Shown one piece after another: positions 6,307 to 63,714 of a stretch of DNA of 64,000 nucleotides; the stretch's first letter is position 1, and each line of letters begins with the position of its first letter. Origin of the DNA: Roseibacillus persicicus (GTDB lineage Bacteria; Verrucomicrobiota; Verrucomicrobiia; Verrucomicrobiales; Akkermansiaceae); NCBI RefSeq assembly GCF_014651675.1, contig NZ_BMXI01000001.1, positions 437,968-501,967 of the forward strand. The letters run 5' to 3'. The notes under the pieces were generated by a model. That model was not told the origin of the DNA. It saw only the letters and a program-made list of their open reading frames with translations, and ran no database searches. Made by a program: the position numbers and the translations under genes.

Positions 6307-7779
6307 ATGAAAAATATAATTCATATTTTCCTATTATCTTTAGCGCTTTCGGGCACTTCCGCCCGCGCGGAATTAATGGCATACTATGGTAGCGGGACGG
6401 AAGTGGATGCGGCCGCGCTCCTCAACCTCGCTCCCACAATCGCCAATGTAACCGTCTCCGATCTATCTGATCTCGGAGCCCAGACCGGGGACACCGAGCG
6501 AATCACCCGCCCTGCATTTTCCACCGACACTCCAGCAGGTCCCACTGCCAACAGCGCGGTCGGTTCAGAATGGTTTGAGGCCCGGAGTACCGAGAACCAG
6601 GGCGACCCCGGCACAACCGACAACTATTTCTTCTTCACCGCCACAGCCGCAGACGGCTTCTTGATTGATCTGACTTCTTTGAAATACGACTTCTGGGTCT
6701 CGGATGCAGGAGGAGGAGCGACAACAGCGGCGGCGGAGGGTTTCGTCTCAGTCAATGGAGGAGAGTTCGTTTCTTTTGGCTCCATCACTGCCACCGATAA
6801 TCTTGGGATGGGCGTTTCGGCACCTGTTGCCTCGGCCGATCTGGACCTGAGCTCCATCAAAGGCGCCCAGTCGGTCGAGATTCGAATTGGGATTGGCTAC
6901 TCGGAGGGCAACGCCTTTAGCATCTCAGGATTTATGCAAGGGATCCAACTCGATGGCGCGATTGTTCCCAACACCTTTCCCCTCGTCATCACGCAAAATG
7001 AGACGAATCCCGCCAACTATGACTTCGTTTGGGAAAGTAAGGACGGCTTCCTCTACGACTTGGTGAGCAGTACCGACCTTGCGTCACCGATCAGCACTTG
7101 GGCCGTTTGGGAAGGCAATGAGGACATCGATGGCACCGCACCCGAAAACAGTTTGAGCAATATCCCGGGGGGATCTGACTCAAAGCGATTCTTCGCGATG
7201 GTTGAGAAGACTCCCCCTCCCTTGCTCGAAGAAGACTTTGACTTGGATGATGGCGGCTTCACCGCTCCCCTGATTGCCGGAGTCACCGAAGGCACTCTCT
7301 GGGAATGGGGCACCGCAGATTCTGACAACTCCTTTGGAGTCTCTGTTAGCGGCAGCTGCTGGGCTGTTGGTCTTGGTTCTTGGGATGGAGGGAATGGCGA
7401 TGCTGGTTTCTACGATATCTCGAATGCCAGCAATGCAACGACCACCTACCTACGCTCCACCCCGATAGATCTTAGTGGCATTGCGGGCGCGGAACTGAGC
7501 TTCTCGGAAGCCATCGATGCGGAGGACGGCGATGTAGCGGAAGTCTATCTAATTGACGCCAATGATGCCATCATCGGGGAAGGTCCCATCCACACCGCGA
7601 CTCTATCCGGCATGTCTACCAGCTACTCATGGGCAGCTGCCAACGGAGGAACCCCGATTGCTCTTCCCGCTGCAGCCATGGAGCAAACAGTGCGCATTGA
7701 ATGGCGCTTCACAGGTTCGGGCACCGACTACCTTGGCTGGTATATTGACGACGTGGTCGTGAGACAAACAACCCCTTGA
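6307..7779 (+). CDS. Secreted paralogue of PEP-CTERM protein with anchor replaced
   Basis: A 490-residue exported protein (signal peptide MKNIIHIFLLSLALSGTSARA). Residues 20-220 are closely similar to the next gene product: DAAALLNLA, SDLSDLGAQTGD, TENQGDP-TDNYFFFT, KYDFWVSDAGGGA, RIGIGYSEGN. Where the neighbour has its PEP-CTERM signal, this protein instead carries a beta module (about 225-300, with LYDLVSSTDL and KRFFAMVEK) that resembles the tail module of other secreted proteins here. A final domain (305-490) follows, ending LGWYIDDVVVRQTTP, typical of MAM/immune-inhibitor-like jellyrolls. No anchor is visible, so it may be released. It probably arose by tandem duplication and domain swap. 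Confidence 0.8.
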   Translation: MKNIIHIFLLSLALSGTSARAELMAYYGSGTEVDAAALLNLAPTIANVTVSDLSDLGAQTGDTERITRPAFSTDTPAGPTANSAVGSEWFEARSTENQGDPGTTDNYFFFTATAADGFLIDLTSLKYDFWVSDAGGGATTAAAEGFVSVNGGEFVSFGSITATDNLGMGVSAPVASADLDLSSIKGAQSVEIRIGIGYSEGNAFSISGFMQGIQLDGAIVPNTFPLVITQNETNPANYDFVWESKDGFLYDLVSSTDLASPISTWAVWEGNEDIDGTAPENSLSNIPGGSDSKRFFAMVEKTPPPLLEEDFDLDDGGFTAPLIAGVTEGTLWEWGTADSDNSFGVSVSGSCWAVGLGSWDGGNGDAGFYDISNASNATTTYLRSTPIDLSGIAGAELSFSEAIDAEDGDVAEVYLIDANDAIIGEGPIHTATLSGMSTSYSWAAANGGTPIALPAAAMEQTVRIEWRFTGSGTDYLGWYIDDVVVRQTTP

Positions 7780-7821
7780 ACCCAAACTTTCTCCTAGGAA
7801 AACCTAACACCTAAACGAATA

Positions 7822-8562
7822 ATGAGATTAGCAATGAAGAACCAAACCAAATTCGCACTGCTGGTAGCGACCACCGCCTTCACCGGCACGAGTGTCAATG
7901 CTGCTGTGCTCGCACAATATAATGATGGAACGGACGAAGACGCCGCCGCGCTCCTCAACCTCGCCACCACCGTCGGGATCACAGTATCAGACTTGTCTGA
8001 TGTAGGAGCCCAAACTGGAGACTCCGCTAGGATTACCCGCCCAGGCTTTAGCACCCCCACTCCAGCAGGTCCGGCTGCCGGCAGCGCGGCAGGTTCGGAG
8101 TGGCTCGAAGCCAGAAGTACAGAAAATCAGGGTTCCCCAAGTTCCACCGACAACTACTTCTTCTTCACCGTCAATGCCGACCCAGGTACCACAATTAATC
8201 TGACTTCCCTGAAGTATGATTTCTGGCTCTCGGATGCGGGCGGAGGTGCCGCTACGGCTTCAGCAGAGGGTTTTATTTCCGTGGATGGCGGAGCATTCAT
8301 TTCCATTGGCAGCATTACTGCGACCGACACTCTCGGAGCCGGTGTGGCTGCTCCCGTAGCACCGGCGAATTTCGATTTGAGTTCCATTACTGGTGTTGAG
8401 TCGCTCGAAGTTCGCATTGGCATTGGCTACTCCCAGGGGAACTCAACCGGCACAAGCGGCTTTGTGCAAGGGATTCAACTTGACGGCTCGGTTATCCCCG
8501 AGCCATCGACAACGCTGCTCGGTTTGGTTTCGGCCATTGGCCTACTTCGCCGCCGTCGCTAA
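7822..8562 (+). CDS. PEP-CTERM sorting-domain protein
   Basis: A 246-residue exported protein; translation could also start at the ATG at 7834, which gives a more standard signal peptide (MKNQTKFALLVATTAFTGTSVNA). The body matches the N-terminal 200 residues of the preceding protein. It ends IPEPSTTLLGLVSAIGLLRRRR, a clear PEP-CTERM signal, so it should be handled by an exosortase. The gap to the upstream paralogue is only 42 bp and the strand is the same, so they may be cotranscribed; a palindromic TCCTAGGA sits between them. A strong terminator follows at 8595. Confidence 0.85.
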   Translation: MRLAMKNQTKFALLVATTAFTGTSVNAAVLAQYNDGTDEDAAALLNLATTVGITVSDLSDVGAQTGDSARITRPGFSTPTPAGPAAGSAAGSEWLEARSTENQGSPSSTDNYFFFTVNADPGTTINLTSLKYDFWLSDAGGGAATASAEGFISVDGGAFISIGSITATDTLGAGVAAPVAPANFDLSSITGVESLEVRIGIGYSQGNSTGTSGFVQGIQLDGSVIPEPSTTLLGLVSAIGLLRRRR

Positions 8563-8594
8563 AGAAGCGCTTCTAGACGACTATCGCTCGCCCC

Positions 8595-8631
8595 ACGCCT
8601 TCGCCCCTCCTGGTGCGGAGGCGTTTTTTTT
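8595..8631 (+). terminator. Rho-independent terminator after paralogous PEP-CTERM pair
   Basis: ACGCCTTCGC, loop, GCGGAGGCGT followed by a run of T. One G-T pair within a 10-bp stem. It ends the 6307-8562 pair. Confidence 0.85.
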
Positions 8632-8866
8632 CTGACTGTTAGGCGCGACGATTTTTTTAAGTCTATGCCAATTTTTCATTTAGTCGAACAGCAAGACGCT
8701 TTTGCCGCAACAGTTTCGACAAGGGCATTCCACTGGAAACGAGGCTCAATCATCGCTCATTCCATCCAAACAGGAGGACTGATCAAAACTAATGGGATTC
8801 TATAGAATGAAAGCGAATTGAATGGATAGGACTTCCCTTGAAAGGATTCGGCTCGATTTCTCGTGA

Positions 8867-8886
8867 GAACTACGGCTAGGTAGTTC
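8867..8886 (+). promoter_or_regulatory. Inverted repeat directly before start codon
   Basis: GAACTAC (8867-8873), loop GGCTAG, GTAGTTC (8880-8886): a perfect 7-bp stem ending five bases before the ATG at 8892. No Shine-Dalgarno sequence is present. It could be a translation-controlling hairpin or an operator. The rest of the 8563-8891 gap shows only the terminator. Confidence 0.5.
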
Positions 8887-8891
8887 GCGGA

Positions 8892-11800: not shown

Positions 11801-13487
11801 GGTTTCCTCTGGAGCGCTAGTGACCAACGGACCAGTCCAAATGCTCAATAGCCTCTTGACCAGAAATGTGGTGTCAACCGAGGGAAACCAGGAGATCAAC
11901 CTCTCTCTGAATGTTGTAAACACCGAGTTCATTTCGCTCGGGAACAATCTGAGCATCGCTCCCAGTGTCTACCTCGACCACCCTTCCGACCTGACCGGCC
12001 TCTCGGCGGAACTAGCCCCTTCCTATCGCGATAGCTCGGGAAAAATCGTTACCGTCCCCTTTTCCAACAGCCCAATTCTCGACGCCGCCAACTCGATGGC
12101 CAGACCTCCTCTCGACTTGCATGGCGGGCTCCGATTGCAAGACCTCCAACCTGATATCGGCGCGACTGAGTCAATCTTTTCCGTCACCGTGACCACCTTG
12201 CAAGACGAGATTTCCAACAACGGAACAACGTCCTTGCGAGAAGCTCTCGCCCTCGTTCACGACCAAGGTCGGATTCGCTTTGATCCTGCTCTCAATTCTC
12301 CTTCCAGCGAGCCGATCATTCTTCTCGAGGACTCCTATGGTCCCCTCGTCATCGACAAGAGTCTCTACCTCGACGGTCTCACCTTCGACACCGCTCCGAT
12401 CATAGTCAGCGGTCCCAAAGAGGGCGTCTTCGAAATCATTGGGAGCAACACAGTCGCCAACCTCACTGGCATTCACATCAGTGGGACCGATTCGTTGTCC
12501 GATGTATCGCCCATCACCTTGACCGACGGGGCTCACCTCAGTCTCTCACGGAGCCTTGTTGCGGGCTTTTTACTCCAAAAAACCCCAGCCTTGTCAGTCG
12601 CGGATTCCTCCTTGACCCTCGAGAACGTCACCATCACTGAGGTCTTCTCCACTCAGACGAGTTCGGTCATCGAAGCGGATAACTCTCTGGTCGAATTGAG
12701 TTTCGTGTCCATCGCTCACAACACCTGCGAAGATGGTGGAACCATCTATCTGGACGACTCTCTCCTCACAAGCTCCACCAGTGTGTTGAGCCAGAACCTG
12801 TTCACCACCGGAAGCGATATCGTTGGGCCTTCCGCCAATCAGCTGGAGATCAAAAACTCCACCGGCTTCGAAAGCGAATTCAATCAGAATCTCGACACCC
12901 TCCGCTTCACGGGGGGACATCTGCCCGTGCTGCCTCCTCTGCCGGGAAGTCAAATCGTCAATGCGGTTGCCGGCCTTTCCACTGCGGAATTGCCCGTTAC
13001 TGATTCTCGAGGCTTAGCGCGTCGCTATGGTGCCGGAGTCGACTTGGGCGCCTTCGAACTCGGCTCCTTTCTCCCGGGACGGATTCCTCCTTTTGACCAA
13101 GACAACGACTCGATGGACGACTTCTGGGAAGACTTCTATCGGCTCGACCCGACAGAACCTACAGACGCGGGCGAAAACCCGGATATGGACGCCTTCACCA
13201 ACGTGCAGGAGTATCGCTTCGAGACGAACCCATTCGGTTTCGACCAAGGGGATGGCAGTGTTTTTCTCAGCATCTTGAGTCGGGACGACAATCAGCTCAT
13301 CGTGCTCGTTGAAACCTCGGGAGCGAGACCCTTCCAACTTTTTCAATCCCTTAGTCTTGCTTCCGAAGACTGGGTTCTCCTCCTGGATGGAAGTACTGGA
13401 GTCGATGGGCGAGCTAACGTCACCCTCGGAAACACCCAGCTTCTTTCAACCGAAACACTTTTCCTTCGGGCCGAAATCGCGAACTAA
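8892..13487 (+). CDS. Very large secreted right-handed beta-helix surface protein
   Basis: A 1,531-residue exported protein. The N-terminus MNNRNLILSVILISCSNLMGQ is a signal peptide; LISC fits a lipobox, so it may be a lipoprotein. Residues 60-240 form a globular domain with WEGAIPAQGSISQSFQALLFNNGDLILTIAPF, reminiscent of nidogen-like domains. Residues 250-1390 are parallel beta-helix repeats with many Asn/Ser ladders. Two LREAL motifs (near 622 and 1113) and DIGATE/DLGAFE endings mark choice-of-anchor-Q-like units, three in total. The tail (from about 1402) has an acidic, calcium-binding-like DQDNDSMDDFW stretch and a beta module ending TLFLRAEIAN. Probable adhesin or polysaccharide-binding/lyase-like protein; no catalytic site identified. 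Confidence 0.85.
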   Translation: MNNRNLILSVILISCSNLMGQVLGTDSFGYEMSRMGSATWVDITEFGEEVISSGNETSSNAAPPEGIGEPVTLEHPFFFYGETVREMVPTVNGYLSTNLSESGSDDTPDCTLPTPVSSAGSRIYVAHRDWILNPAPNARVLYQYFPESPHPHAECGVNVFSWEGAIPAQGSISQSFQALLFNNGDLILTIAPFATGFGSSEMLGIQNDDGTVGIGLNCNSPLTETGRQSFLFQAPTHFSNNTESALLSAIAGAVAGERIELKTAQIDLSSPLHITKPLTIAGTPTDNIDPVLRRGLMLDGQKVVIDGVHVNFIDFRSSDSPDSAIELINGGSASFYGSTLLNAEESLISAGNNSDIWLSNCSLESVRFGSSHLIEMLGADSLMIDRSVLSDSRGAAVSMVGSSSGTTLQVRSSSIFRNRGPAFKLAGVEARITNSTISSNVARGIEVVDSQLDLHHCTIADHGSTALLVEESAVTLSHNIFARNQGTDSDANLIVDQDSSYTSEGANLIDSPFAGPNQASDLINTAARISPLGAYGSPNVGARRSDLRMPLLCHMPFYDSPAIGGGIDTDALKTKKDQRGKARTFSATGSATEGVDIGSVEASRIVYVTTAADQLDTPPGAQVSLREALLEGDHIVIDPTLSGSTLTLSNNAATLPTNNLSFIDGSGLSNPFTVSGGGTRTQPLFSSDLHAHNLTFRDSKGSVLRGRFVSLSNCLVKGISYQDTNTVVGSGTSGFIRYRERDGGAFYVENFGIFTDCVFEDNRVIAPLVERANEGFAARGGAICAAYASEPVAFLGIKVPRGLYLLGCRFEGNQNQLSAEEATPTQGAGAVESLAMKTIVEDCVFTGNAGTTGALSVSAGDLLEAALGGGAVLNVKGDRFAEVSRSSFDKNQVGSTGGASVTAGALLLGASSNNAAVIESCYLGSNECNTEATADNGYTAGAAFVAGNVVVNHCTFQDNEAVDTGTRPQVVSSGALVTNGPVQMLNSLLTRNVVSTEGNQEINLSLNVVNTEFISLGNNLSIAPSVYLDHPSDLTGLSAELAPSYRDSSGKIVTVPFSNSPILDAANSMARPPLDLHGGLRLQDLQPDIGATESIFSVTVTTLQDEISNNGTTSLREALALVHDQGRIRFDPALNSPSSEPIILLEDSYGPLVIDKSLYLDGLTFDTAPIIVSGPKEGVFEIIGSNTVANLTGIHISGTDSLSDVSPITLTDGAHLSLSRSLVAGFLLQKTPALSVADSSLTLENVTITEVFSTQTSSVIEADNSLVELSFVSIAHNTCEDGGTIYLDDSLLTSSTSVLSQNLFTTGSDIVGPSANQLEIKNSTGFESEFNQNLDTLRFTGGHLPVLPPLPGSQIVNAVAGLSTAELPVTDSRGLARRYGAGVDLGAFELGSFLPGRIPPFDQDNDSMDDFWEDFYRLDPTEPTDAGENPDMDAFTNVQEYRFETNPFGFDQGDGSVFLSILSRDDNQLIVLVETSGARPFQLFQSLSLASEDWVLLLDGSTGVDGRANVTLGNTQLLSTETLFLRAEIAN

Positions 13488-13550
13488 AACGCGGGGTGTC
13501 CCTTTCTTTTCCATGCGAATGAGGATGCCCTGGGGAATCTCCTTAGAATC

Positions 13551-33249: not shown

Positions 33250-33255
33250 CGCTGA

Positions 33256-33270
33256 GAAATTGAAAATTTC
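33256..33270 (-). promoter_or_regulatory. Inverted repeat just upstream of PVC cytochrome start
   Basis: GAAATT, centre GAA, AATTTC: a perfect 6-bp repeat ending six bases before the ATG at 33249. Same placement as the repeats at 8867, 19572 and 39675. Confidence 0.4.
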
Positions 33271-33771
33271 GAACGCTGGCAGGAAATGGCGGATGCCGTT
33301 GAAATTGGCGAATGGGTTGCGGCTCATGGCTAGACAGTAATGCGTGTGGGAAAAAGGCGGCTGATTCTGCAGGCGGGTTACGGAAAGCCACGTAGAATCG
33401 TTTCAGCTAAATCTACAAATGATAGGTAAAACCACAAAAAAAGCGATTCTCAGGGAAGTTCTGCTTCGCTCTAGCTCTCGGCCTAATAACGATGTCCGCG
33501 CGAATGGAAAACGAGTAAATATCAGGCCTTGCGCCCGCTCGGTGACGTCATCCTGAGTCGAAGAGCAGGAACCCACCATCTCTCATTTCCGCCCAAAATA
33601 TCAAAAACACACAAAGACCTATTCAAATCTCCACAGACTTCCTTCCAACAAGAATTCTGGAAAAATCGCTCATTTGAGTCGCTTCATCGTTCGCGTTTCC
33701 TTTTGAAAACCAAACCGAGTGAGCCTTGACCTAAAGCCCATCTCAGTTTCGTATTGCTGCCTTCCCTTGTT
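33271..33771. other. Non-coding gap
   Basis: About 500 bp between divergent genes. No gene-like frame. A TTGACC at 33727 with TATTGC at 33753 is a weak promoter-like pair (20-bp spacing) for the small gene at 33772. Otherwise nothing distinct. Confidence 0.3.
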
Positions 33772-35169: not shown

Positions 35170-35170
35170 C

Positions 35171-35239: not shown

Positions 35240-38011
35240 CTAGTCCACTTCGATCCGGATAAACTTCCGCCCACTTTCCAAAGGCACAGACGCGGACATG
35301 AATTCCACATCTCCCTCAACTCCCTGCGAAGATTCAACGAAGCCATCGCCATGCCCCTTCCAAGTGCCGCTGCCTAGCGACGACGACCAGGTAGCCCGCA
35401 CCCGGAGACCGCTACCAACCCGACGGACATAATTTACGGTGAAGAGCTCTCCTTGGGCAGAGAACGCCATCTCAGGTGAATCGGAAGCCATCGGGTCAAG
35501 GACCAACGCCCACTCCTCGAGGTTGGTAAAGTGATCTCCATCAGGATTGCCCATTTCAGACCAATCGACACTTTCCCTCTCACTCCCGAAGCTGGCCTCG
35601 GCCCAGAGTTCGTATGGCGTGGCCGTATCGACAAGCTGTATCGCGTCAATCGCAGTATCGGCGGCATGCCATTGGCGTTGCTTGGAACGGAAACGAATTG
35701 TCACGAGATCGTTTCCGGCAAAGGCAGAAAGCCCAACCCGGGCGGTCGCCCAGTCATCCTCATTGCTGGATTGCTGTTGCCCTGACTTTTTCCATACATC
35801 CAAATGCCACTCAGAACCGGAGTGAACATCCACGGACAAGAAGTCGATGTAGGGGCCAAACATGTGGTAGTCGAAGGTCAGCTCCGGGTGCACCGCTGTG
35901 CTCAAATCGAACCTCCCCTCCACAGAAGCCGACTTGTAGTAGGCTCCATTGGAATGATTTTCGACGTAGAGATACCAGTCGCCATCGGATGAACCACTCG
36001 GCCCCGTATTGGTCGTTGCGGTTCCTCCCGTATGGTGACTCCAATCGATATCATCTTCAGCTGACTGGGCCCACCCTCCCAGGCCATTTTCAAAGCTCTC
36101 GGCATATGGCAAAGTCTGCGGAGGCTCGGCGAAGAGAATATTGTCTACCGCCACATCGGATGCATGCCAAACGCTCTTCTTCGTCCGAAAGCGAACGGTC
36201 ACCTCCGACAGCCCGGCATAGTCCGAAAGATCAACTATGGCTCTATGCCAGGGGTCCTCGCTCATGGCTTGCTGAGCACCCTCTCTAATCCAAACGCCTT
36301 CCACCCATTCGGCCCCGTCATAGACATCCACCGCCAAGTGGTCGATATAAGCCCCACACATATGGTAGTCGAATCTCAGCTCGGCACCCGAAACATCACT
36401 CAAATCAAAACGCTTCTCCAAGAGCGCCTCGTAGTCCGGAGCATTGGCGTTATGCCCCTCCGCATAGAGATACCAGTCCCCTTGAGAAGCACTGCTCGGG
36501 CCACTCCCCGAGGTGCCAGTCGCAAAGACATTTCGTGACCAGTCAAAGTCATCATCCTGGACCTGCTTCCATTCTCCAAAGCCACTCTCGAATCCCTCGT
36601 AGTAGGGAAGCTTGCGTGCTTCTTGAGCTTCGATATCAAAGAGAAAACAACTGATGCTCTGCGCCGCGATATCCACCTGAAAGCCGGTTCCTGACCCAAT
36701 GATGGTTTCACATACTCCCTCGAGGTCTCCCTCCTCAGTCCAGACGGTTTCGTCGATTTCCAAACCGCTCAAAGAAGAGTCCAAGTTGACAGAAACGGAG
36801 GAATGGCCGGCATCCCCTTCATTGATAACCCACAAGACCACCTGATCGTTCTTACGAAACGCCATTGTATGAACACCCGGCATGTCGCTGGCCTCCGAGG
36901 GAAAATAACAACTATCGACCACATGATTCGCGAAATGCTTCATGATGTAATAGGCCCGCATCTTCCGTCCTGTTCCTCCCCATGGACAATAGATGGGGCG
37001 AGTTTCGTTGTTGAGACCCCGAGACCAAATCTCAAAGAAAATCTCCCCCTTCACCCCCGCTTCATACATATGGCAGCGCTCGACATATGCCGCAATGGGA
37101 GTGGTAATTGGACGTTCCACCCCTGAGGTAGGCCCTCCCCCACCATGGCTGCTCTCATCATTGTAAAGCACTTTGCCCAACGCGAGCGCCTTAGCATTGA
37201 TTCCGTGCCAAAGAGAATGATCGCTCGTTCCATAGTTGTGATTGCAAAAGGACCAATACAGGTCCTCCGTGCCCAAGCTGGCAACGTCGTCCAGATACTT
37301 GTTGCCCTGCGCCGTGCTCCAAAACCCCTGATCCGAGATCAGGGGCATGGCAACACCACGGGCATCCAGTTCGCTTTTTAGCTTTGTAATCACACCTGCC
37401 GAAACCGTCGCATTCACAAAAGTGGTCCACTCCTTGGCAACCGACATCATTGCGATGGGAACGCCCTGCTGCTCCATATACTCAACATAGTCCGCCAGAA
37501 AAACACCGTATTTCGCAACCTCAATTGCCTTGGTATTATAGTTGCAGATCCAGTCCGGCAGATTGTTGTCGTTCCCATAACCATCGTAGTCTGAGCGTAA
37601 GGTAGCAAAGAACAGAATATCCGGATTGATCGCCCGTATCTCCCTCATCGTAGTCACCTGCTTTTCATAGAAAGCCCAGTTCTTCACCCCCTCTGCCAGC
37701 TCCTGCTTCTTGTCGTATTGAACCCGGCAAACATTAAAATTGATGTCGCCAAAGCCCCACTTCAGGATCTCCGCTTTGTTTTGGGTATTCTGAATGGCCC
37801 CCGAGCTTCGCTCCATATCCCCACCCATCATGTCAACTTCCTGCCTCAGATCCGAGCTCCTCAGCTCAATGGACTGGGCAACAGAGCCAGATGGAATCAG
37901 CCAGAGAAATAACAGCAATAGGGAACCCAGGCGCCACCGCATGGCTTCGCGGTACCCCGGCACAACGGAGCCCAAAGGCCGCGATGACAGCCGCTTTCCT
38001 CTCTTCTTCAT
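35240..38011 (-). CDS. Secreted GH-A clan (GH30-like) exoenzyme with two MAM domains
   Basis: A 923-residue exported protein. The ATG at 38011 is supported by GGAGG eight bases upstream; the signal peptide is then preceded by a basic 25-residue stretch. Residues 45-480 form a TIM barrel with a beta side domain; likely catalytic Glu in MMSVAKEWTTF and in VLYNDESSHGGG; the barrel region ends AAQSISCFLFDI as in GH30. Two MAM/jellyroll domains follow (485-655, 660-815), both with WHASD/WHAAD motifs. The tail has GNPDGDHFTNLEEW and ends GRKFIRIEVD. Probably cleaves a polysaccharide outside the cell; substrate unknown. Confidence 0.82.
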   Translation of the reverse strand: MKKRGKRLSSRPLGSVVPGYREAMRWRLGSLLLLFLWLIPSGSVAQSIELRSSDLRQEVDMMGGDMERSSGAIQNTQNKAEILKWGFGDINFNVCRVQYDKKQELAEGVKNWAFYEKQVTTMREIRAINPDILFFATLRSDYDGYGNDNNLPDWICNYNTKAIEVAKYGVFLADYVEYMEQQGVPIAMMSVAKEWTTFVNATVSAGVITKLKSELDARGVAMPLISDQGFWSTAQGNKYLDDVASLGTEDLYWSFCNHNYGTSDHSLWHGINAKALALGKVLYNDESSHGGGGPTSGVERPITTPIAAYVERCHMYEAGVKGEIFFEIWSRGLNNETRPIYCPWGGTGRKMRAYYIMKHFANHVVDSCYFPSEASDMPGVHTMAFRKNDQVVLWVINEGDAGHSSVSVNLDSSLSGLEIDETVWTEEGDLEGVCETIIGSGTGFQVDIAAQSISCFLFDIEAQEARKLPYYEGFESGFGEWKQVQDDDFDWSRNVFATGTSGSGPSSASQGDWYLYAEGHNANAPDYEALLEKRFDLSDVSGAELRFDYHMCGAYIDHLAVDVYDGAEWVEGVWIREGAQQAMSEDPWHRAIVDLSDYAGLSEVTVRFRTKKSVWHASDVAVDNILFAEPPQTLPYAESFENGLGGWAQSAEDDIDWSHHTGGTATTNTGPSGSSDGDWYLYVENHSNGAYYKSASVEGRFDLSTAVHPELTFDYHMFGPYIDFLSVDVHSGSEWHLDVWKKSGQQQSSNEDDWATARVGLSAFAGNDLVTIRFRSKQRQWHAADTAIDAIQLVDTATPYELWAEASFGSERESVDWSEMGNPDGDHFTNLEEWALVLDPMASDSPEMAFSAQGELFTVNYVRRVGSGLRVRATWSSSLGSGTWKGHGDGFVESSQGVEGDVEFMSASVPLESGRKFIRIEVD

Positions 38012-54000: not shown

Positions 54001-55001
54001 TTGGCGACGAAGCCAGCCTCCCGACCGAAACAGTGGCCTTTTTCGCCGGCAATTCGGGCGGAGGACGCATCCTGAACATCCATCTGCCTTGGAGCACTTC
54101 CGAGATCTATTGGGACGCCAGCGACCGCATTAGCAAGGCCGCCAGCGAAGCGGAATTCGAAGGAGCCTGGACCCACTGGGCCTTCACCAAAGACGCGCAC
54201 GAGGGAACGATGAAGATCTTCCGCAACGGCATCCTCTGGCACTCCGGCACAGGGAAGACCAACTCCATCGGAACCATTGCCCAAGCATACATCGGCAGCG
54301 AAAACACCTCCCGCCACTACTCCGGCCTCCTCGACGACTTCCGTCTTTTTGATACCGCGCTCACTGACGCCACCATTTCCAAGCTCTACACCAACGCCCT
54401 CAATTCCCACCTCCTCACCTATAGCGCGGGGCCCGGAGGATCGCTCTCTGGAGTCACCTCCCAGACCGTGGACGACACCACCAACGGCTGCCCCGTCACC
54501 GTCATTCCGGATACCAACCACAGCTTCGTCAATTGGAGCGACGGGAGCACGGCCAACCCACGCACCGACCTCTTCCTCACTGGTGACTTGAGCGTCACCG
54601 CCAACTTCGTCGCCAACTACACCGCTCTGGAGAACTGGCGCTTCCTCCGCTTGGGCACCTACGAGAATAGTGGAATCGCCGCAGATGATTTTGATGCCGA
54701 CGGGGATGGATTGCCGAACCTCATCGAATACGCAACCGGGCTGGACCCCAACGATTCCACCGATTCGCTCGCGCTGGAAATCAAGGAATCCACCACTCTT
54801 CCCGACGAACTCGAAGTCCTCTTCAACCGCATCGACGACCCGGGCCTCACCTACATTTTGGAAGGAAGCGCCACCCTCCTCGAAGAGGACTGGACCTCGC
54901 TGAGAACCGTCAACGGAACCAGCGTCGGGCCCGTCATCACCACCCAGTCGGAATGGCCCTCGGCGGACTACTTCTTCTTCCGACTCAAGGTCGAATACTA
55001 A
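51006..55001 (+). CDS. Large secreted alginate-lyase-family enzyme with CBM and LamG modules
   Basis: A 1,331-residue exported protein (signal peptide MQKLSLLLACLAMASLPA). Residues 20-310 contain glycine-rich beta repeats of the PEP-CTERM-associated type. Residues 318-720 match the alginate_lyase fold: an (alpha/alpha) toroid with ALTRSFVHPGLSHKLSDLERMRD, NNNALRNDGVAAYFNALMW, GRHWRLIEAAEII and DYGYNEVIHNYIWPNGQGQEFSRDMAHGLAG, where Asn, His and Tyr candidates lie. CBM6-like (770-925), LamG (930-1130), a bacterial beta repeat (1140-1200), then DADGDGLPNLIEYATG and a tail ending YFFFRLKVEY. It probably cleaves uronate-containing polysaccharide by beta-elimination. Confidence 0.85.
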   Translation: MQKLSLLLACLAMASLPADEIIYTGVEGGEWATNANWSTASYPSGADYATLDTTANLSVVAPNSIRAIRIGTSGSGTLNIASQATLDVGSHASWDSHLGDGSGNLGTVHQEGGFVDINELEIGRNSSTGVYHLQDGSLTIIRGLKDNSLYLGTDDSKGSAGEGHFIIRNGEFKTRVGVYLGSTSGGIGHFEVIGSHANLIGIGSHGNGDGSWTQNSGSTLKVQIDKTTQGLTPIFIDEVGDDGGGNVVFEDGSLLDVSFTTNFVNGGTYTVMEWEGQVTDNGLQFAPSVDTNIWSFQVDAANKRLTVTASAPALTRSFVHPGLSHKLSDLERMRDMVAANKEPYASTFAKLSATGFAQHTYQPSSAAADLATNGGTANNNALRNDGVAAYFNALMWFITGDERHAEASIRIFTAWSGVKNIDGIPLNAGRHWRLIEAAEIIKSTYNGWEPADLQAFKDMLVYPGYSSTTAPTGSDQSLYWRAYQGDPARHGNQGLFALRVVMAIGVFLDNEVIYDRAVRYLQGAPARADDLPYESGPSIANQQIASYEHFNEFSRTGQENTIPDYGYNEVIHNYIWPNGQGQEFSRDMAHGLAGISIICTMAEMAWSQGDNLYGHLDNRPLLGLEYFYRYNVSYENSYLDQTSPWEPTVENGEFIQRLDRSGRWFSLKANPYLAQNVGETYIHRGRTDILEEPVYEMNLAHYRDRMGVPAEETKWLERGQELLTAAIGVEDGGTAWDHPSFGSLTFHRVSPGDPVQGFSNGSPDFAMNVLPMTIEAENFDYFVLNEEEKTYSDLSTGNSGLSYRLGENVDLSSASVGGYAVSDIEAGEWLSYTISVPADDNYDLSILYSSTAPGGTIQFSVDGTDLTGEVSIPHGSPDSTGASDWQSLLVAADLPLTQGVQQLRITFGGTSQSFLLNSFSLTTPIPDPVAHWRFDEGAGSLAYDCSGNDFHGTINNPSWTTRPDGGNALVFDGNSTNVTLPSSAFASLTDEVTLAFWAFGDEASLPTETVAFFAGNSGGGRILNIHLPWSTSEIYWDASDRISKAASEAEFEGAWTHWAFTKDAHEGTMKIFRNGILWHSGTGKTNSIGTIAQAYIGSENTSRHYSGLLDDFRLFDTALTDATISKLYTNALNSHLLTYSAGPGGSLSGVTSQTVDDTTNGCPVTVIPDTNHSFVNWSDGSTANPRTDLFLTGDLSVTANFVANYTALENWRFLRLGTYENSGIAADDFDADGDGLPNLIEYATGLDPNDSTDSLALEIKESTTLPDELEVLFNRIDDPGLTYILEGSATLLEEDWTSLRTVNGTSVGPVITTQSEWPSADYFFFRLKVEY

Positions 55002-55088: not shown

Positions 55089-58000
55089 TCAGTCACTTTC
55101 TTCGCTGTAGCTAGGAGATGCGGACACTCCCAAGCGGAAGAATTGCCGTTCGTGAGTGGGATCCTCGTAATCGAAAAGAACATCGATTTCGAGGAGGGCT
55201 CCCGTGCCGCTATGCACAGGTCCTAGCTCTTCCCAATCATCTGTGAGAAGGGTGTCACTGGTGTAGAGTTGGTAGTCGTAACCCAATCCGGAGGACTCGA
55301 TGGTGAACGACAACAGCTTGGCTCCAGAGCCATCAACGCTCATTTCCAGATCCGAGATGGCAAGGTTTTCAGCGGAGATCGGCTCGGGCTGGGTGGTGGC
55401 ACTGGCCACCGACGAAACCGGTCCGACCTCATCGCCGAAGTTGCCCGTGATGCGATAGAAGTATGTGGTGAAAGGACTGAGACCGGTGTCAGAGAAGGCA
55501 GTCCCTTCTATCCCGGTGGAAATCTCGCTAAACGGCCCGCTCGCCGAAAGCGCTCTACTGAGATTGTAGCTCGAGGCTTCGGCTGCCGCCTCCCACGAAA
55601 TAGCAATTTCGTTCGCACTGACCGCATTGGCAGTCAAGCCAGAGACCTCGACCGGAGTGGGCGCGGGAAGCTCGTTCACGGTAAACCAATTCAAATTCAC
55701 AAAGGCAGCATTGGTCGTCGTTTCGGCGTCCTCTACAAACTTGAGGTAGAGGTTATAGATTCCCGCATCGACATCCAGAGTAGTCGAAACCGTTTCATAG
55801 CTTTGCCAACCGTTGGTATTCGGTACGTCGACTTGTCCGAGGACAGGGCCATCCGCGCTACCTTCGCGAACCTCGATAAAGCCATCGGGACGCCCATTGG
55901 CGCGAGCGACGCGGAAGGTCATCAGAGAGTCTTCAACCAATGCGACGTCACCATATCGCACGAAATCGCCGTTGCTGATATTCTGCAAGTTCAACCCTCC
56001 CCCGGTGTCCCCGGTATTCTGGGTGCTCAAGCCCCAGGAGTGGTCGAAGTCTTCGCCTTGAATCAGGTCGTTCGAGAAGTCCTCGCCATCGAGCACAATC
56101 TCGAAACAGCAGACCGACGCCCCGGGGACCAAGGTATTGAAATGAGAACCACCGACCACAGGCTCGAAGGTGACAAAGCCTTCCACCTGGCTCGGGTCCG
56201 TCCAACGGGTGCGGCGAACGGAGGTCTCGGCAATCGTCCGTCCATCGGGAGAGATGTCGAGAGACACGGGAACTTGGTTCTCATTGATGACCCACACCGT
56301 CATGAGGTTGCCTTTGATAAAGGCCGCAACGTTGCGGGGAATCGCATCGTCATTGGAGCCCAACGGAGCATTCAGAACGCCCGGCTCAGGCTCGGCAAGA
56401 ATGTCGAGGGCATGGCCATAGTTGGAGGTCGAGCTGAGCTTGCGATAGATGTAGTATTTCACGTTTCGCGTGGCGGAACCACCGGGGTTCAGGATGTAGG
56501 AGTGCCCTTGGTTCGTTGTTCCGATGGCCAACCAGCCATTGATTCCTCCAAAGCCAGCTCGAATCGCTTCCAGATAGTAGTAGAAGGAAGTGGTCTCATT
56601 TTCGCTGGAGGTGCTCTTCCATCCGTGGACTTCGGTGTTCCAGATCTCGGTCTCGGAGCCCAACCGGCTCCGAACGGCATCTGCAAAGGACTGGGCATCG
56701 CCGTCGCGGTCGGTGTTGTGGGACGCCGCGATCGAGATCGCCTCGCGGTCCCCCGAATCCAAATTGTTGATCCAAGACGTTCCCTGCAAGTAGTTCCAAG
56801 AAGAAGGAGCCACGATTTCGGGAATGTCCTCTGGCTCTAACAAAATAGAAGAATCCACTTCGGAATAGGTCCAGGGATCCTGGAAGTAGGTCACGTTGAG
56901 GTATTCATGGATGTTCTCCATGTCGCCTTGAGTGACGCGGCCCCCACCGACATTGCTCTGCCACTCATTGGTGATATCCAGAAAGCTGATCTGAAAGTCG
57001 TAGGACTTCATCAGCAGCAGGTAGCGCACGAGATACTCCGCGCACTCTTGCCAATCGAAGTCAAAGCTTCCACTAATCGGAGTAGGCGCACCACAAATCC
57101 AAAAGGGATAAGGCTGCCAGCGCACGTCTTCGCCTTCCCACTTTTTGCTCGGGTAGGACTCGTTGAGAGGTCGGGGAGAGGCGAAGAATTTGATGTCCGG
57201 GTTGGCCTGCTTCATCTCCTGCATCAGGGGGATGATTTTGCTCGTGTAGGCGGAGAGGTCATAGTCCCCTTTGAAGTCACGTTCATACCCACCGTTGACC
57301 GCAACCCGCACAAAGTCGACATCGGCATCCACTGCAGTCCAGCGGGCAATCTCATCCCGCTCCGCCCCGTCAAGGTTGCTCGACCAATACCAGAGGCGCT
57401 CGTAGTCCATTCCGTAGCGCATCTTTTGCTGGAGCGTGCTCCCCACCGTGAGAGGAAGAGCGACCATTTGCTCGAAGGAAAACCAGTTCACGTTGAAAAG
57501 TGCGCCTTCTCCCCCAAGATAGTTCAACCGAATCGTCTTGGCTCCCGCAGTCGCAAAGTTCACTTCGATGCTGACTGTGATCCAAGTCTGCCAACCATTG
57601 GTATTTGGAACCGTAATTTCGGCAAGGGGAACGCCATCGACGACCATCTCGATTCGCCCCCCCAGATCATTGTCGGAAGCCACCCGAAAGTTCGCGATAT
57701 ACTCTCCTGCAACAGGAACGACCACCGAATACTCGGTCCAGTCGCCATTGTCGATGTAAGCGACCGCTTCACCCGCATCGGTGTCAGAATTCACCTGCAC
57801 CCGAATACCCGACATGGAACTGAATTCCTCAGCCTCAACAAGTATCGGCCCGGGTCCGTAGCTGAACCAATTCAGATTGAAAAGGTAGGCGTCGGCAGAT
57901 CCAGAAAAGTTCAGGCGAATCGTCTGCGTCCCCGCGCTGCTGAAAGTAAAGACTCCACTCACCGTGGACCAGGACTGCCAACCACCGGTATCCACCACCG

Positions 58001-58421
58001 TTGCGCTGCCAAGGGGGGTACTTCCCACCACGCCCTCGATGCTTCCGCCCTCCCCATCGGAGGCGACTCGGAAGTTGAAACGATAATCTCCCGCCACAGG
58101 AATATCGACGGTGTATTCCGCCCAGTCCCCCGTATTCGTATAGCCCAAATTCTGACCGCCACCGGAGTCACTGGTCGTTTCCACGCGAAGACCACTTTGC
58201 GCGGTAAAGCCCTCTGCCTCCACTTGCACGAATTCCGCTTTAGCATTCGAGGCGAACAAGAGGGTGCACCCAAAGACAAGTAAGAGAACCAGCAACGAGT
58301 GACGGCCAGACCGGCGAATTGCTCGCTGACTCGTTGTGGATTCTCCGCCCCGCACGTTGGCAAAAGGCAGTGAGTTGAAGGGGGCGGAAAGGGGGTGGGC
58401 TTGTTGACAATCAGCTGGCAT
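55089..58421 (-). CDS. Secreted GH-A clan glycoside hydrolase with three CBM6 modules and FN3
   Basis: The ATG at 58421 (1,110 residues) is preferred to a TTG at 58475, which abuts an operator-like site. A long basic leader precedes the hydrophobic signal helix (RRSGRHSLLVLLLVFGCTLLFASNAKA). Residue numbers here count from the ATG: two CBM6 domains (65-190, 197-317; VQVEAEGFTAQSGLRVETT, ILVEAEEFSSMSGIRVQVN), a TIM barrel (325-780) with Glu candidates in FLDITNEWQSNVGG and IWNTEVHGW, a side domain ending SVCCFEIVL, a third CBM6 (797-925), FN3 (932-1020) and a tail ending RQFFRLGVSAS. GH30- or GH86-like; CBM6 suggests agar- or xylan-type binding. Substrate not proven. Confidence 0.8.
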   Translation of the reverse strand: MPADCQQAHPLSAPFNSLPFANVRGGESTTSQRAIRRSGRHSLLVLLLVFGCTLLFASNAKAEFVQVEAEGFTAQSGLRVETTSDSGGGQNLGYTNTGDWAEYTVDIPVAGDYRFNFRVASDGEGGSIEGVVGSTPLGSATVVDTGGWQSWSTVSGVFTFSSAGTQTIRLNFSGSADAYLFNLNWFSYGPGPILVEAEEFSSMSGIRVQVNSDTDAGEAVAYIDNGDWTEYSVVVPVAGEYIANFRVASDNDLGGRIEMVVDGVPLAEITVPNTNGWQTWITVSIEVNFATAGAKTIRLNYLGGEGALFNVNWFSFEQMVALPLTVGSTLQQKMRYGMDYERLWYWSSNLDGAERDEIARWTAVDADVDFVRVAVNGGYERDFKGDYDLSAYTSKIIPLMQEMKQANPDIKFFASPRPLNESYPSKKWEGEDVRWQPYPFWICGAPTPISGSFDFDWQECAEYLVRYLLLMKSYDFQISFLDITNEWQSNVGGGRVTQGDMENIHEYLNVTYFQDPWTYSEVDSSILLEPEDIPEIVAPSSWNYLQGTSWINNLDSGDREAISIAASHNTDRDGDAQSFADAVRSRLGSETEIWNTEVHGWKSTSSENETTSFYYYLEAIRAGFGGINGWLAIGTTNQGHSYILNPGGSATRNVKYYIYRKLSSTSNYGHALDILAEPEPGVLNAPLGSNDDAIPRNVAAFIKGNLMTVWVINENQVPVSLDISPDGRTIAETSVRRTRWTDPSQVEGFVTFEPVVGGSHFNTLVPGASVCCFEIVLDGEDFSNDLIQGEDFDHSWGLSTQNTGDTGGGLNLQNISNGDFVRYGDVALVEDSLMTFRVARANGRPDGFIEVREGSADGPVLGQVDVPNTNGWQSYETVSTTLDVDAGIYNLYLKFVEDAETTTNAAFVNLNWFTVNELPAPTPVEVSGLTANAVSANEIAISWEAAAEASSYNLSRALSASGPFSEISTGIEGTAFSDTGLSPFTTYFYRITGNFGDEVGPVSSVASATTQPEPISAENLAISDLEMSVDGSGAKLLSFTIESSGLGYDYQLYTSDTLLTDDWEELGPVHSGTGALLEIDVLFDYEDPTHERQFFRLGVSASPSYSEESD

Positions 58422-58477
58422 ATCGGTTCTTTGGGGAGGGAAGAGGGTCGTGGTGGCTGACACGCTCGACTTCAATG

Positions 58478-58491: not shown

Positions 58492-58742
58492 AACCTTTTT
58501 CATTAGGAGAGAGAAGAGGCTCCACCCTGTTGAAGATCAGCGTGCGGGCGCTCCTTATTGGAAGCACAACGAATTTAAAAAGAAGAAAGCAGCTCGGTGA
58601 CGACTTTCGCCAAACTTATGAGTCGATCGGATGAAAGGCCGCATGCATCAGGGCCAATGAGTTCCCCTAGAGCTCCTTTAGTTCAGACAATTTGCGAATG
58701 AACTTGGTTCCCTCGCAGACCGGACAATAATTTGGCGAATCA

Positions 58743-60320: not shown

Positions 60321-60343
60321 GAAGACCGTCGCTGCCAGATTGC

Positions 60344-60365
60344 GTCCATGCCAAGCCGCATGGGC
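60344..60365. terminator. Hairpin between converging genes
   Basis: CCATGC-loop-GCATGG, extendable by two pairs, after the sulfatase stop and before the converging gene ending at 60394. No T-run; weak call. Confidence 0.3.
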
Positions 60366-60393
60366 CAGTCTAACAGACAGTTCGTAAAGTCCT

Positions 60394-63300
60394 CTATTCC
60401 GGCCGCTCGACCACGATGCTGAGAAACTTTCTCGCTTCCGCAGCGGAGACCGGAAGGGACACCGCCATGGTCTCGAAAACGCCGTCGTCTCCTGCCAGTT
60501 CTTCGGAAAGTCCGTCCGTGAACCATGGGTCCTTCAGGTCTCGCGACCACTCCGCGTAGACGTTCACCCCGTCGACTTTCCGCCGGGAATAGGAAACCGT
60601 GATCTCCTCATCGCCCGTCGACAGAATGACCAAGGGTGAGTCGGCCTTTCCGGGATCGGTGCCCAGGATAAACTCCGCGTAGTTGTCCAAAGAGTCACCA
60701 TCCGGATTGCCATCATCAGCCGCTACTCCTTCCCCAACCACCGTCTGGAAGTAGGACGACCTCCACATCTCAAGGTCGCTGAAGACTTCTCCTGTTAGAA
60801 AAAAGTCATCGAGATAGACCCTCGATTCCGAGCTGCTCGCAGGCCCCCCTTGCCAATAGATCCGAAACTCCACTGAGGCGTCAGTGACGAAGTCGGGAAA
60901 ATCATAAATCTCGAAATTCCCCTCGTCTTCCAGTCCACCTGCGCTCACCGCGCCACTGGTCAAGAAAACCTCTTCCCCACCCTCAATGCGATAGCTGAGC
61001 TGATAGCTGCGACTGGCCTCCTTGGCAAAGGCATCCACGAACAAGCTTTCGTACCCAATTGAACTTCCGTTCGGTTCGACGATGTAGGAAAGGAAATAGC
61101 CGTAATCGTCTTCCGCCACCTCACTTGGCAGCCCGGTCCCTTCCGCGACCGAAAGCTGGTCGATGGTGGTCGCGATCTCGCCCCCAGCCAATCCTCCGCC
61201 CAAGGTCACCACGGAGCTGACGCTACCATATTCGTAGTCCGGACTGGTCGCACCCGCCGAATGCCCGTAACCCACCAGCACATTGCCCACGAACAGCGCG
61301 ACTGTCACCTCACCGCTGTCCACATTGCCATCGTCCACCTTGAAGATGAAGCTGTCCGGCCCCACGTAACCCGCATCGGGGGTATAGAGGAGCTCCGGTG
61401 CCGTTCCGCTCAAACTCCCGTGGCTGGGCGGGGTTATGATGGTGTAGTTCAAGCCATCATCATCAGCATCACTGGCAGCAAGCAGCACCGCCGTTTCGCC
61501 GCGGACAACAGCGCTTCCCCCAATCGCCTCTGGAGCGGTGTTGGTATCCTCAAGGATGAGATTGTCGATGGCGGTATCGGCAGCATGCCACTGCTTCTGC
61601 TTGGAGCGGAAGCGAAGGGTCACCTCCGCAAGACCCGCGTAGGTGGAAAGGTCGACTTCCGCAGTCGACCACGCCTCCTCACTGCTGCTGTGTTGCTGAT
61701 TGTTTCGGATCCAAACATCGTTCGTCCAACTGGTCCCGTCGTGAACATCGACTGCGAGAAAGTCGATGTAGACTCCATACATATGATAGTCGAAGAAGAG
61801 CGTCGGCGCGGCCGCTCCCGTGAAATCGAAAAGCGCCTCAAGGGAAGACGTCTTGTATTGCGCACCCGTTCCGTGATTTTCCACATAGAGATACTGCACC
61901 CCGTCGGATGCCCCAATTGGTCCCGTCGCGCCGGTATCAGTCCCTCCGCTATGCCAGGTCCAATCCCAATCATCATCCGAGGACTGCTTCCAGGCTCCCA
62001 AGGCAGCTTCGAAACTTTCCGCATAGGGCAAAGACTCCGCCACCAGAGCCGCGGTCGTCGCTGCAGTAGCCGCCGACTCCACACTCTCATTCTGATTGGC
62101 GGAGAGATCCCGAACCTTCACCGTGTATTCATAAGTCGTGGCGGGGTCCAAGCCGGTATCGGTATAGCTGGGGCTGACTTGCCATCCGCTGTCGTGGGAC
62201 CCGTCCGCGACAGTCTTGTTAGAGAAATAATACTGAACCCCACCAGAGTCCGCCACCCACTCCGCCTCCATGCTCACCTCGCAAACAGCGCTTTCCTGTG
62301 GAGGGCTGACCCACTCGAGGGGCTCGGCCGAAGGAGAGGCAAAGTCATAGGTCACCCAGATGCCCGGATGGTCCGACAAACCTGCCGCCACGGCCGCATA
62401 GAACCCACTGTTGCTCTTGCTTTCCACCGAGGCCACATGGTCCAACCCGTTGCTCGTCAGAACCGGCGGATCGAGAACCTCGGTCACATCCAGATAGGCC
62501 GCGCCATTGCGGAGATTGAAGTCCCCCAGCATCACCACATTGTCGTCCTCAGCCTCGGACCACTGCGTGATGTCGAGTCGGTCGAAGACGTAATCCTTGA
62601 ACTTGCTCATCCCCGCCTTTTCCGAGGCATAGTCATCATCGCCGAAATTGTAGGTATTGTGAAAATTGAATATATTGATTTGTTCGCCCCCAACCTCAAT
62701 CACCACGTGCTGCGCGAAACGGGACCACTCGTCACCCTGCGGATCGATCTGGATGAGCTGACTGTGCGTGTCCACAAAGGGATAGCGCGAAAAGATTACG
62801 AGTGAAGACTCCAGCGCAGACTGATACCACGCGCGGTCGGTGGCCTCATAGATCGTTTGATAGGAGTAAGGGTAGTCCGCCGAAAAGACATCCTTCGCCG
62901 CTTGATACTCATCGCTGGCCGAAGACCCTTCTCCCACTTCCTGCAGGCAAAGGACATCCTCCCCTTGCATGAAATCCTCGTAAAAATCGCCCAGATTGTC
63001 CGCCGGGGTTCCCTGGCCATTTGGGCCGTAGCCTCCGTGGATATTGTAAGTCAGCACCGCGATCTCATCGACGGTTCCAGTCACCGCCACATTGTCGAGA
63101 AAGAGGGCCTGCGTCGGATTCGACGCCGTATCCCCCTCCAGAAGAAACCGGGCCGTTTCCCCCACCCCCAGGCACCGGTCCGTGAGCGCGGTCAGGTCGA
63201 TCTCCACGTCCTCGTAATCTGCCGAAGCCGAAATGCCATTGTGCACCGCGCTTCGACTCCAAATCACGGTCCCGTTGGCATTGCTCAGGTCTCCCTGCTG

Positions 63301-63714
63301 ATAGGTCAGGGTCAAGTTCTGCGGCGAGTTTCCATTGATACTCGCAAAGTCGAAAAGAATGCGCTGCAAGCCAATCGCCCGCACACTGTTGTTGGTGACG
63401 GTGAAGGAGATGCCCGCACTATCGGTCCGCACGCTCATGGCACCATCGATCGCCGCACTCCCTACCGGAAAGCTCTCGCCAAAAGTCCCATCGTTGCATC
63501 CCTGCGCCGACACCCGCGCCCCGTCTCCACCCCAGAGCGATCCGCTCACTTTGAAATAGGACGCATCCGCCTTCTTGGCCGACCCCTGGTTTCGAAAGGC
63601 TCCATAGCTCCCCGAAAAATCGTGCCAGCCGGCCAGAATCATTTCTTCGGCCGAAGCACCGACGCTCGAAATGAGTAAGACAACAAAGGGAAATGATCGG
63701 AAAGGAGATATCAT
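60394..63714 (-). CDS. Secreted endonuclease/exonuclease/phosphatase protein with MAM and cadherin-like modules
   Basis: A 1,106-residue exported protein (signal MISPFRSFPFVVLLISSVGASA). Residues 25-215 are a beta domain (ILAGWHDFSGSYGAF). Residues 218-455 are an EEP domain with LTYNIHGG, LCLQEVGEG (metal Glu), NIFNFHNTY, VVMLGDFNLR and GLSDHPGIWV, the full catalytic set. FN3-like (460-555), a MAM domain (560-715) nearly the same as those in the 35240 enzyme, a cadherin/VCBS-like repeat (720-805), another beta domain, and a tail with DDGNPDGDSLDNYAEF ending RKFLSIVVERPE. It could hydrolyse DNA, lipid or sugar phosphates outside the cell. Confidence 0.88.
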   Translation of the reverse strand: MISPFRSFPFVVLLISSVGASAEEMILAGWHDFSGSYGAFRNQGSAKKADASYFKVSGSLWGGDGARVSAQGCNDGTFGESFPVGSAAIDGAMSVRTDSAGISFTVTNNSVRAIGLQRILFDFASINGNSPQNLTLTYQQGDLSNANGTVIWSRSAVHNGISASADYEDVEIDLTALTDRCLGVGETARFLLEGDTASNPTQALFLDNVAVTGTVDEIAVLTYNIHGGYGPNGQGTPADNLGDFYEDFMQGEDVLCLQEVGEGSSASDEYQAAKDVFSADYPYSYQTIYEATDRAWYQSALESSLVIFSRYPFVDTHSQLIQIDPQGDEWSRFAQHVVIEVGGEQINIFNFHNTYNFGDDDYASEKAGMSKFKDYVFDRLDITQWSEAEDDNVVMLGDFNLRNGAAYLDVTEVLDPPVLTSNGLDHVASVESKSNSGFYAAVAAGLSDHPGIWVTYDFASPSAEPLEWVSPPQESAVCEVSMEAEWVADSGGVQYYFSNKTVADGSHDSGWQVSPSYTDTGLDPATTYEYTVKVRDLSANQNESVESAATAATTAALVAESLPYAESFEAALGAWKQSSDDDWDWTWHSGGTDTGATGPIGASDGVQYLYVENHGTGAQYKTSSLEALFDFTGAAAPTLFFDYHMYGVYIDFLAVDVHDGTSWTNDVWIRNNQQHSSSEEAWSTAEVDLSTYAGLAEVTLRFRSKQKQWHAADTAIDNLILEDTNTAPEAIGGSAVVRGETAVLLAASDADDDGLNYTIITPPSHGSLSGTAPELLYTPDAGYVGPDSFIFKVDDGNVDSGEVTVALFVGNVLVGYGHSAGATSPDYEYGSVSSVVTLGGGLAGGEIATTIDQLSVAEGTGLPSEVAEDDYGYFLSYIVEPNGSSIGYESLFVDAFAKEASRSYQLSYRIEGGEEVFLTSGAVSAGGLEDEGNFEIYDFPDFVTDASVEFRIYWQGGPASSSESRVYLDDFFLTGEVFSDLEMWRSSYFQTVVGEGVAADDGNPDGDSLDNYAEFILGTDPGKADSPLVILSTGDEEITVSYSRRKVDGVNVYAEWSRDLKDPWFTDGLSEELAGDDGVFETMAVSLPVSAAEARKFLSIVVERPE

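Follow-up and report, generated by a model that had tools for sequence, protein, structure and literature searches.

Why should large exported proteins with quite different domains end in the same way? This question is raised by a stretch of 64,000 nucleotides from Roseibacillus persicicus (contig NZ_BMXI01000001.1; the whole stretch is hereafter called the window), in which, according to the original prediction, six exported proteins carry the same type of C-terminal tail, an acidic linker followed by a beta domain with a conserved end. The proteins are named here by window position (8892, 16758, 35240, 51006, 55089, and 60394). Our analysis indicates that the tail is a real and large C-terminal domain family, apparently undescribed; no description of it was recognised in the literature searched, whose coverage left out most subscription journals. 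We tentatively read the tail, at a probability of roughly 45%, as a C-terminal domain that serves to sort or retain the large exported proteins of Verrucomicrobiota, and which would work like the C-terminal domain (CTD) of type IX secretion system (T9SS) cargo while standing outside that system.

The window tails were scored with a leave-window-out profile, for which 51 other tails of the genome were used and the window genes were excluded from training; E-values were calculated for 5000 proteins. The predicted coordinates and endings of all six tails agreed with the sequence on re-reading, and five of the six, those of 60394, 35240, 51006, 16758, and 55089, form one family beyond chance as judged by their profile matches (E 1.6e-22 to 2.1e-4). 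The remaining tail, that of 8892, was marginal with this profile (E 0.074), and the wider profile A3 matched it at E 0.004 between profile positions 11 and 129, which makes it a probable family member. No acidic stretch had originally been noted in 55089, and its match covered the beta part only. Among 4900 shuffled tails, the top score was 12.7 bits; the 55089 tail scored above this value (19.8), and the 8892 tail (11.6) and a possible internal module in the 6307 protein (7.6) scored below it. No match to the leave-window-out profile was listed for five other window proteins run as controls. Pairwise BLAST among the window proteins backed some pairs only, namely 35240/60394 (1.7e-15), 51006/60394 (1.4e-8), and 16758/35240 (2e-4).

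A profile made of three window tails matched the R. persicicus genome at 113 places (E <= 1), and the 26-row profile A3 matched it at 109 (E <= 0.01). A refined profile of 55 terminal tails was used to scan all open reading frames (ORFs) in the stretches fetched around the A3 matches, and the gene counts given here apply to these profile-positive stretches rather than to an exhaustive gene list. Seventy-nine domain rows reached the model end, one per ORF (79 rows in 79 ORFs); as three genes had been fetched in two pieces and were counted twice, the rows represent 76 genes with a full module. In 68 of these 76 genes, the module was followed by 20 residues or fewer, and since the profile carries no stop-codon information, terminal placement is an independent result. 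A further 29 rows ended short of the model end, and 21 of these, often internal repeats, reached no further than the loop part (up to model position 61). Internal full copies were located in L206, ahead of a sulfatase-like start, in L203, L163, L207, and L208, and in three giant proteins. In L206 (2160-5783, minus strand), the module lies mid-way in an ORF of 1208 aa with the sulfatase-like start directly after it, representing either a fusion or a true two-part enzyme. L203 (2260-5391, plus strand) and L205 (2098-7071, minus strand) carry loop/beta modules upstream of a C-terminus that we take, by its look, to be of the DUF1800 type.

Terminal placement also held in other Verrucomicrobiota. 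The top locus of each of 29 genomes stopped within 15 residues past the match in all 29 cases, and 26 of 27 further loci in genomes G140, G081, and G113 were terminal, the exception (L281) being matched over positions 26-93 only. Weaker full-length matches in G140 and G081, four of which were close paralogues, were terminal in 20 of 20 cases. As the module almost always closes the chain, it is probably a sorting or surface-holding tag. The strongest rival explanation, which we consider rather unlikely, is that the terminal sandwich is a ligand-binding module for the cell's own exopolysaccharide, lipopolysaccharide, or substrate glycans and keeps enzymes in the matrix, with no role in secretion. 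The existence of internal copies would suit such a module, whereas the terminal position in 68 of 76 genes and the single full copy per ORF would not. Modules of the binding type can generally occur anywhere in a chain and frequently do so as repeats.

The proteins carrying the tail look exported. A crude signal-peptide rule was passed by 49 of 67 terminal-tail ORFs with a closed 5' end, compared to 4 of 67 shuffled ORFs and 45 of 177 other ORFs, spurious ones included. Most of the 18 misses, 17 of them viewed by their most hydrophobic stretch and window gene 55089 by its N-terminus, were signal-peptide-like by eye, often behind a later start. The 55089 gene (55089-58475, minus strand) has a long N-terminus ahead of a clear signal-peptide-like stretch, RRSGRHSLLVLLLVFGCTLLFASNAKAEF, which suggests that its listed TTG start is too early. 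Tail ORFs were long, with a median of 1118 aa and 64 of 68 exceeding 500 aa, and one of the remaining four was cut by the stretch end. The domains found within 420 residues before the tail of 66 carriers were mutually unrelated; among the families listed (best 25 of 40 and best 25 of 45), PATR occurred 8 times, LTD, He_PIG, and Big_9 5 times each, and MAM and LamG 3 times each, with sulfatase, M14 peptidase, rhamnosidase, and cyclophilin as single cases. The occurrence of carbohydrate-binding-module, LamG, and glycosidase proteins among the carriers is in keeping with ligand binding as well. According to the original prediction, the sorting idea would fail if the tails did not align, lay internally without bias, or appeared on cytosolic proteins; as far as these points were checked, the tails align, their position is strongly biased to the chain end, and the carriers appear to be exported.

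The module is a soluble-looking domain of about 125 residues. Its consensus opens with W-x(3)-[YF]-F-G or similar, followed by D-P-D-G-D-G-L-S-N-L-L-E-Y-A-L-G-L-D-P; a segment of variable sequence leads on to G-L-T-Y-x-V-E-W-S-T-D-L-x-x-W, and the module closes, past a hairpin that also varies, in K/R-F-x-R-[LVI]-x-[VI]. The A3 columns conserved in at least 90% of rows were W, D, D, N, and E in the linker and L88, W91, F126, and R128 in the sandwich. Conservation is taken from A3, since in the loop-pattern count the R of the end motif belonged to the anchor and its presence in 62 of 62 tails there is given by construction. With strands taken from the AlphaFold model, F126 and R128 belong to the last strand, so that two of the four most conserved sandwich residues sit there, which speaks against ligand binding as the sole function. 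An EF-hand loop (12 residues, D/N at 1, 3, and 5, and an acid at 12) was present in 60 of 68 terminal tails, compared to a mean of 5.84 and a maximum of 12 in 200 rounds of shuffling, and this loop is predicted to bind calcium. All of the best 60 of 154 profile matches in the PDB were such loops (calcineurin B at 5.6e-5, with two weak loops, and calmodulins from 0.008 up), and sequence relatives among them were thus confined to the loop. The Bacterial TSP3 repeat PF18884 matched 5 of 26 tails, with a best E of 0.00091. A model of the Amuc_1099 pilus-like protein weakly matched 9 of 26 tails (best E 8.7e-5), the match lying on the acidic loop in the one shown, and a loop similar to that of the tail may also occur in the Amuc_1099 pilus-like system.

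For the sandwich itself, no Pfam or NCBIfam model matched when 26 tails were scanned, and no Pfam model for fibronectin type III (FN3) or immunoglobulin (Ig) domains was among their matches at E <= 1. The AlphaFold model of the 60394 tail is a sandwich of six strands, with a predicted local distance difference test score (pLDDT) of 82-92 by blocks of ten over residues 61-130, and the model of the tail from Luteolibacter marinus (L072) is the same kind of sandwich with seven strands. The VIA structure comparison returned Ig/FN3-like domains with no clear relative, 6nmy_D at Z 8.2 (root-mean-square deviation 3.0, 84 aligned) and 6gf7_A at Z 7.3 (2.9, 79 aligned). The domain at the chain end is therefore predicted to be an Ig/FN3-like sandwich, a fold that would also be at home in a ligand-binding module. 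Alternatively, the tail could be a structural cap, a calcium-stabilised end domain which shields long secreted chains from proteolysis or aids their folding, with no role in sorting. The canonical loop, its calcineurin- and calmodulin-like profile matches, and the length of the carriers fit a cap; we regard it as improbable, as the match in 55089 comprises the beta part only and a cap gives no reason for the conservation of F-x-R in the terminal position.

The tails of genome G140 bear on both calcium and the end strand. Five long ORFs (L324-L328) have tails 82-96% identical in DNA over 369 bp, whereas the 150 bp upstream of these tails are only 34-37% identical (ungapped) between three IPT/TIG-like and two B-repeat-like neighbours, named by eye. 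Because these upstream regions diverge, the tail sits on different neighbours, and it looks as though it was copied as a cassette among these proteins, which are related mosaics with repeats in common elsewhere. In all five tails, the calcium-loop ligands are lost and the EF-hand pattern is absent, while the last 17 residues are identical. The decay of the loop beside an identical end suggests that the end strand outweighs calcium in importance, and it is a further argument against a cap.

If the tail is a sorting or retention domain, it might work in four steps. The N-terminal signal peptide would take the protein across the inner membrane; in the periplasm, the EF-type loop would bind calcium and stiffen the link to the last domain; the predicted Ig/FN3-like sandwich would fold; and a receptor or translocon in the outer membrane would recognise the last strand, in which the terminal F-x-R is near-invariant, resulting in export or in holding at the surface. 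Terminal placement, one full copy per ORF, signal-peptide-like N-termini, unrelated upstream domains, the conserved end strand, the G140 tails, sandwich models of the same kind, and the precedent of the T9SS CTD all favour such a role. Several points weigh against it. No receptor, protease, or translocon was found for the tail. The bias to the chain end is strong, yet the original prediction had asked whether the module is always C-terminal, and the 8 of 76 genes with an internal module count against a strict sorting signal. The possible module of 6307 is internal, with nearly 190 residues downstream of it. Both AlphaFold models draw on one set of 13 sequences, folds of the Ig type are common, and no VIA Z-score exceeds 8.2, values that may reflect a common arrangement only; in the end motif, F and R might have a structural role alone. 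A broader claim, which we put forward as doubtful, is that Verrucomicrobiota possess an outer-membrane pathway of their own for secretion or surface attachment. It would recognise the F-x-R-L end strand of a C-terminal Ig-like domain, would need neither T9SS nor exosortase nor sortase, and would serve dozens of cargos in some genomes.

Across the phylum, profile A3 matched 88 of 145 Verrucomicrobiota genomes at E <= 1e-5. At most about 29 candidates were scored per genome, and single matches may be incomplete modules; distant lineages may be missed because A3 derives from one genome. When all candidates were scored at E <= 1e-3, G140, G081, and G113 had 69, 77, and 3 matches, respectively, some of them loop-only. 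A genome-contig search with the 51006 tail, the only such search beyond the set, gave seven loci, all labelled as Verrucomicrobiota (Verrucomicrobia, Verrucomicrobiales, Akkermansia, Luteolibacter, Opitutales, and Kiritimatiellae), one of which (L074) was an internal match of the loop only. No relative of the tail appeared in two viral-contig scans or in a tblastn search of plasmids with one tail.

The original prediction had also asked whether tail counts track a secretion or sorting gene. Exosortase was matched in 103 of 145 genomes, with two matches in R. persicicus; 78 genomes had both tail and exosortase, 10 the tail only, 25 exosortase only, and 32 neither (Fisher p 1.4e-8). All 58 tail-rich genomes, defined by five or more counted tails, had exosortase, but the exopolysaccharide exporter family Poly_export was likewise present in 58 of 58, so the association may not be specific to exosortase. 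With relatedness and genome size ignored, tail-richness was more tightly associated with exosortase (p 2.7e-12) than with Poly_export (p 1.1e-8). Of the genomes with Poly_export, 58 of the 100 that also have exosortase were tail-rich, compared to 0 of the 14 that do not. In genus g2, the number of tails differed with exosortase (10 versus 5 genomes, p 0.039), and the exosortase-free genomes tended to be smaller. Secretin was uninformative because it is near-universal (141 of 145 genomes, the other four having no counted tail), and sulfatase, used as a lifestyle control, was missing from at least 6 of the 58 tail-rich genomes. The association and its persistence among Poly_export genomes would fit a tail that is an exosortase-dependent alternative to PEP-CTERM. 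We hold this to be very unlikely, since the tails show no transmembrane helix with a basic end, since Poly_export is just as constant, though more loosely associated, and since ten tail-positive genomes have no exosortase match. Among these is G113, a single-contig genome with two strong tails, indicating that the tail can exist without exosortase. We read the co-occurrence with exosortase and Poly_export as a shared matrix-building lifestyle, although a functional link is also possible; the constancy of Poly_export would equally suit binding to exopolysaccharide.

Within the R. persicicus genome, PF07589 found 57 PEP-CTERM places, an undercount because the window's own 7822 is absent from it. 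The PEP-CTERM ORFs were short, with a median of 270 aa and 2 of 57 exceeding 500 aa, and the fetched PEP-CTERM proteins gave no match to the tail profile or to the beta profile. Conversely, the endings of the tails read without a PEP motif, transmembrane helix, or basic end, as originally described. Twelve of the 57 PEP-CTERM proteins had a domain in common with a tail protein (E <= 1e-4), and in the pairs L243/L144, L251/L175, and L262/L123, the common domain stopped 16, 54, and 16 residues short of the tail, respectively. This is the sharing that alternative end modules would give, although any two exported sets in one genome may share domains anyway. The idea of the module as a PEP-CTERM alternative thus survives in part: the two mark different proteins with some upstream domains in common, but across genomes the tail is no stand-in for exosortase, the tail-rich genomes having both. 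The example behind the idea, a module in 6307 at the PEP-CTERM site of its paralogue, is weak. The two proteins are paralogues that part at the PEP-CTERM ending of 7822, but the module in 6307 was not significant, and its membership of the family is unproven; the choice_anch_J match in the same protein (E 0.0099) is below the cut-off.

The features of the window are collected in Table 1. Elsewhere in the window (28990-33327, minus strand), a protein of 1445 aa combines 3-keto-disaccharide hydrolase, DUF7133, LamG, and cytochrome c domains.

Table 1. Tail modules and related features in the R. persicicus window
Feature	Position	Strand	Evidence
C-terminal module, 60394 protein (1106 aa; endonuclease/phosphatase-like, MAM, and cadherin-like domains by Pfam)	60397..60771	-	Leave-window-out profile E 1.6e-22; sandwich predicted by AlphaFold
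EF-hand-type 12-residue loop NPDGDSLDNYAE in the 60394 tail	60673..60708	-	Read from alignment A4; loop pattern common in the family
C-terminal module, 35240 protein (923 aa; XynC-like glycosidase stretch below cut-off, MAM)	35243..35608	-	E 5.8e-19
C-terminal module, 51006 protein (1331 aa; alginate-lyase-like, CBM6, LamG, B-repeat)	54636..54998	+	E 5e-18
C-terminal module, 16758 protein (936 aa; FG-GAP), short extension past the motif	16761..17189	-	E 2e-6
Beta part only, end of 55089 protein (1128 aa; three CBM6)	55125..55346	-	E 2.1e-4, profile positions 51-123
Probable divergent module, end of 8892 protein (1531 aa; beta-helix, choice-of-anchor Q)	13122..13484	+	E 0.074, linker only
Possible beta module inside the 6307 protein, ahead of a choice-of-anchor-J-like region	6979..7215	+	Not significant, E 1.2 (0.69 in a second comparison)
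Paralogue of 6307 with PEP-CTERM ending	7822..8562	+	67% identity over 223 aa, then divergence

To our knowledge, the export route of large polysaccharide-degrading proteins in Verrucomicrobiota is poorly known. A recent genome paper goes no further than to suggest possible involvement of the type II system (PMC13274419). A C-terminal tag that is widespread, reaches dozens of copies in some genomes, and has a sandwich without a Pfam or NCBIfam match offers a concrete handle for hunting the machinery, and a model of the tail would improve the annotation of many exported proteins.

Among known modules, the Bacterial TSP3 repeat (PF18884) and the EF-hand loop resemble the tail in the acidic D-x-D-x-D-G loop, but the former is a short repeat and leaves the sandwich unexplained. 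Fibronectin III and Ig domains have a fold like that predicted for the tail, which differs from them by its lack of a Pfam model match and its strongly C-terminal place. The choice-of-anchor domains of NCBIfam are domains followed by alternative C-terminal signals; choice_anch_Q does precede the 8892 tail, but it was the only such family among the best 25 of 40 upstream families and occurred in 1 of 66 stretches. The PEP-CTERM/exosortase system shares with the tail a C-terminal module, many copies per genome, exported proteins, and some upstream domain families. PEP-CTERM, which itself came to notice through a novel C-terminal homology in Verrucomicrobium spinosum, is of about 24 residues with a transmembrane helix and a basic end (PMC1569441) and occurs here on small proteins, whereas the tail is several times longer, soluble-looking, and borne by large ones. 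A study of the Akkermansia outer-membrane proteome speaks of PEP-CTERM proteins (PMC4960237).

The T9SS cargo CTD (TIGR04183 / PF18962) resembles the tail as a C-terminal Ig-like sandwich, predicted in the case of the tail, on signal-peptide proteins with unrelated upstream domains and a conserved end. According to two studies, T9SS CTDs are Ig-like sandwiches with the signal in the C-terminal strands or the domain end (PMC4804311; PMC11285876). The same general fold class and C-terminal placement would allow the tail to be a divergent CTD secreted by T9SS itself, an explanation which is largely refuted for R. persicicus and to which we give hardly any weight. SprA_N had no match at E <= 0.1 in this genome or in any control genome, leaving the set without a positive control; the best Por_Secre_tail match was at E 0.013 and 18.3 bits, below the cut-off of 27, with background matches in four control genomes; and no T9SS model was among the matches of 26 tails. 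The VIA matches listed did not include a T9SS CTD structure either, an absence that carries no weight against the CTD. The tail further differs from the CTD in the EF-type loop before the sandwich, the minority of internal copies, and the phylum. Orphan end domains of the T9SS-CTD kind have a precedent in Poribacteria, which are reported to lack structural Por genes while having domains that potentially belong to TIGR04183 (PMC3909097).

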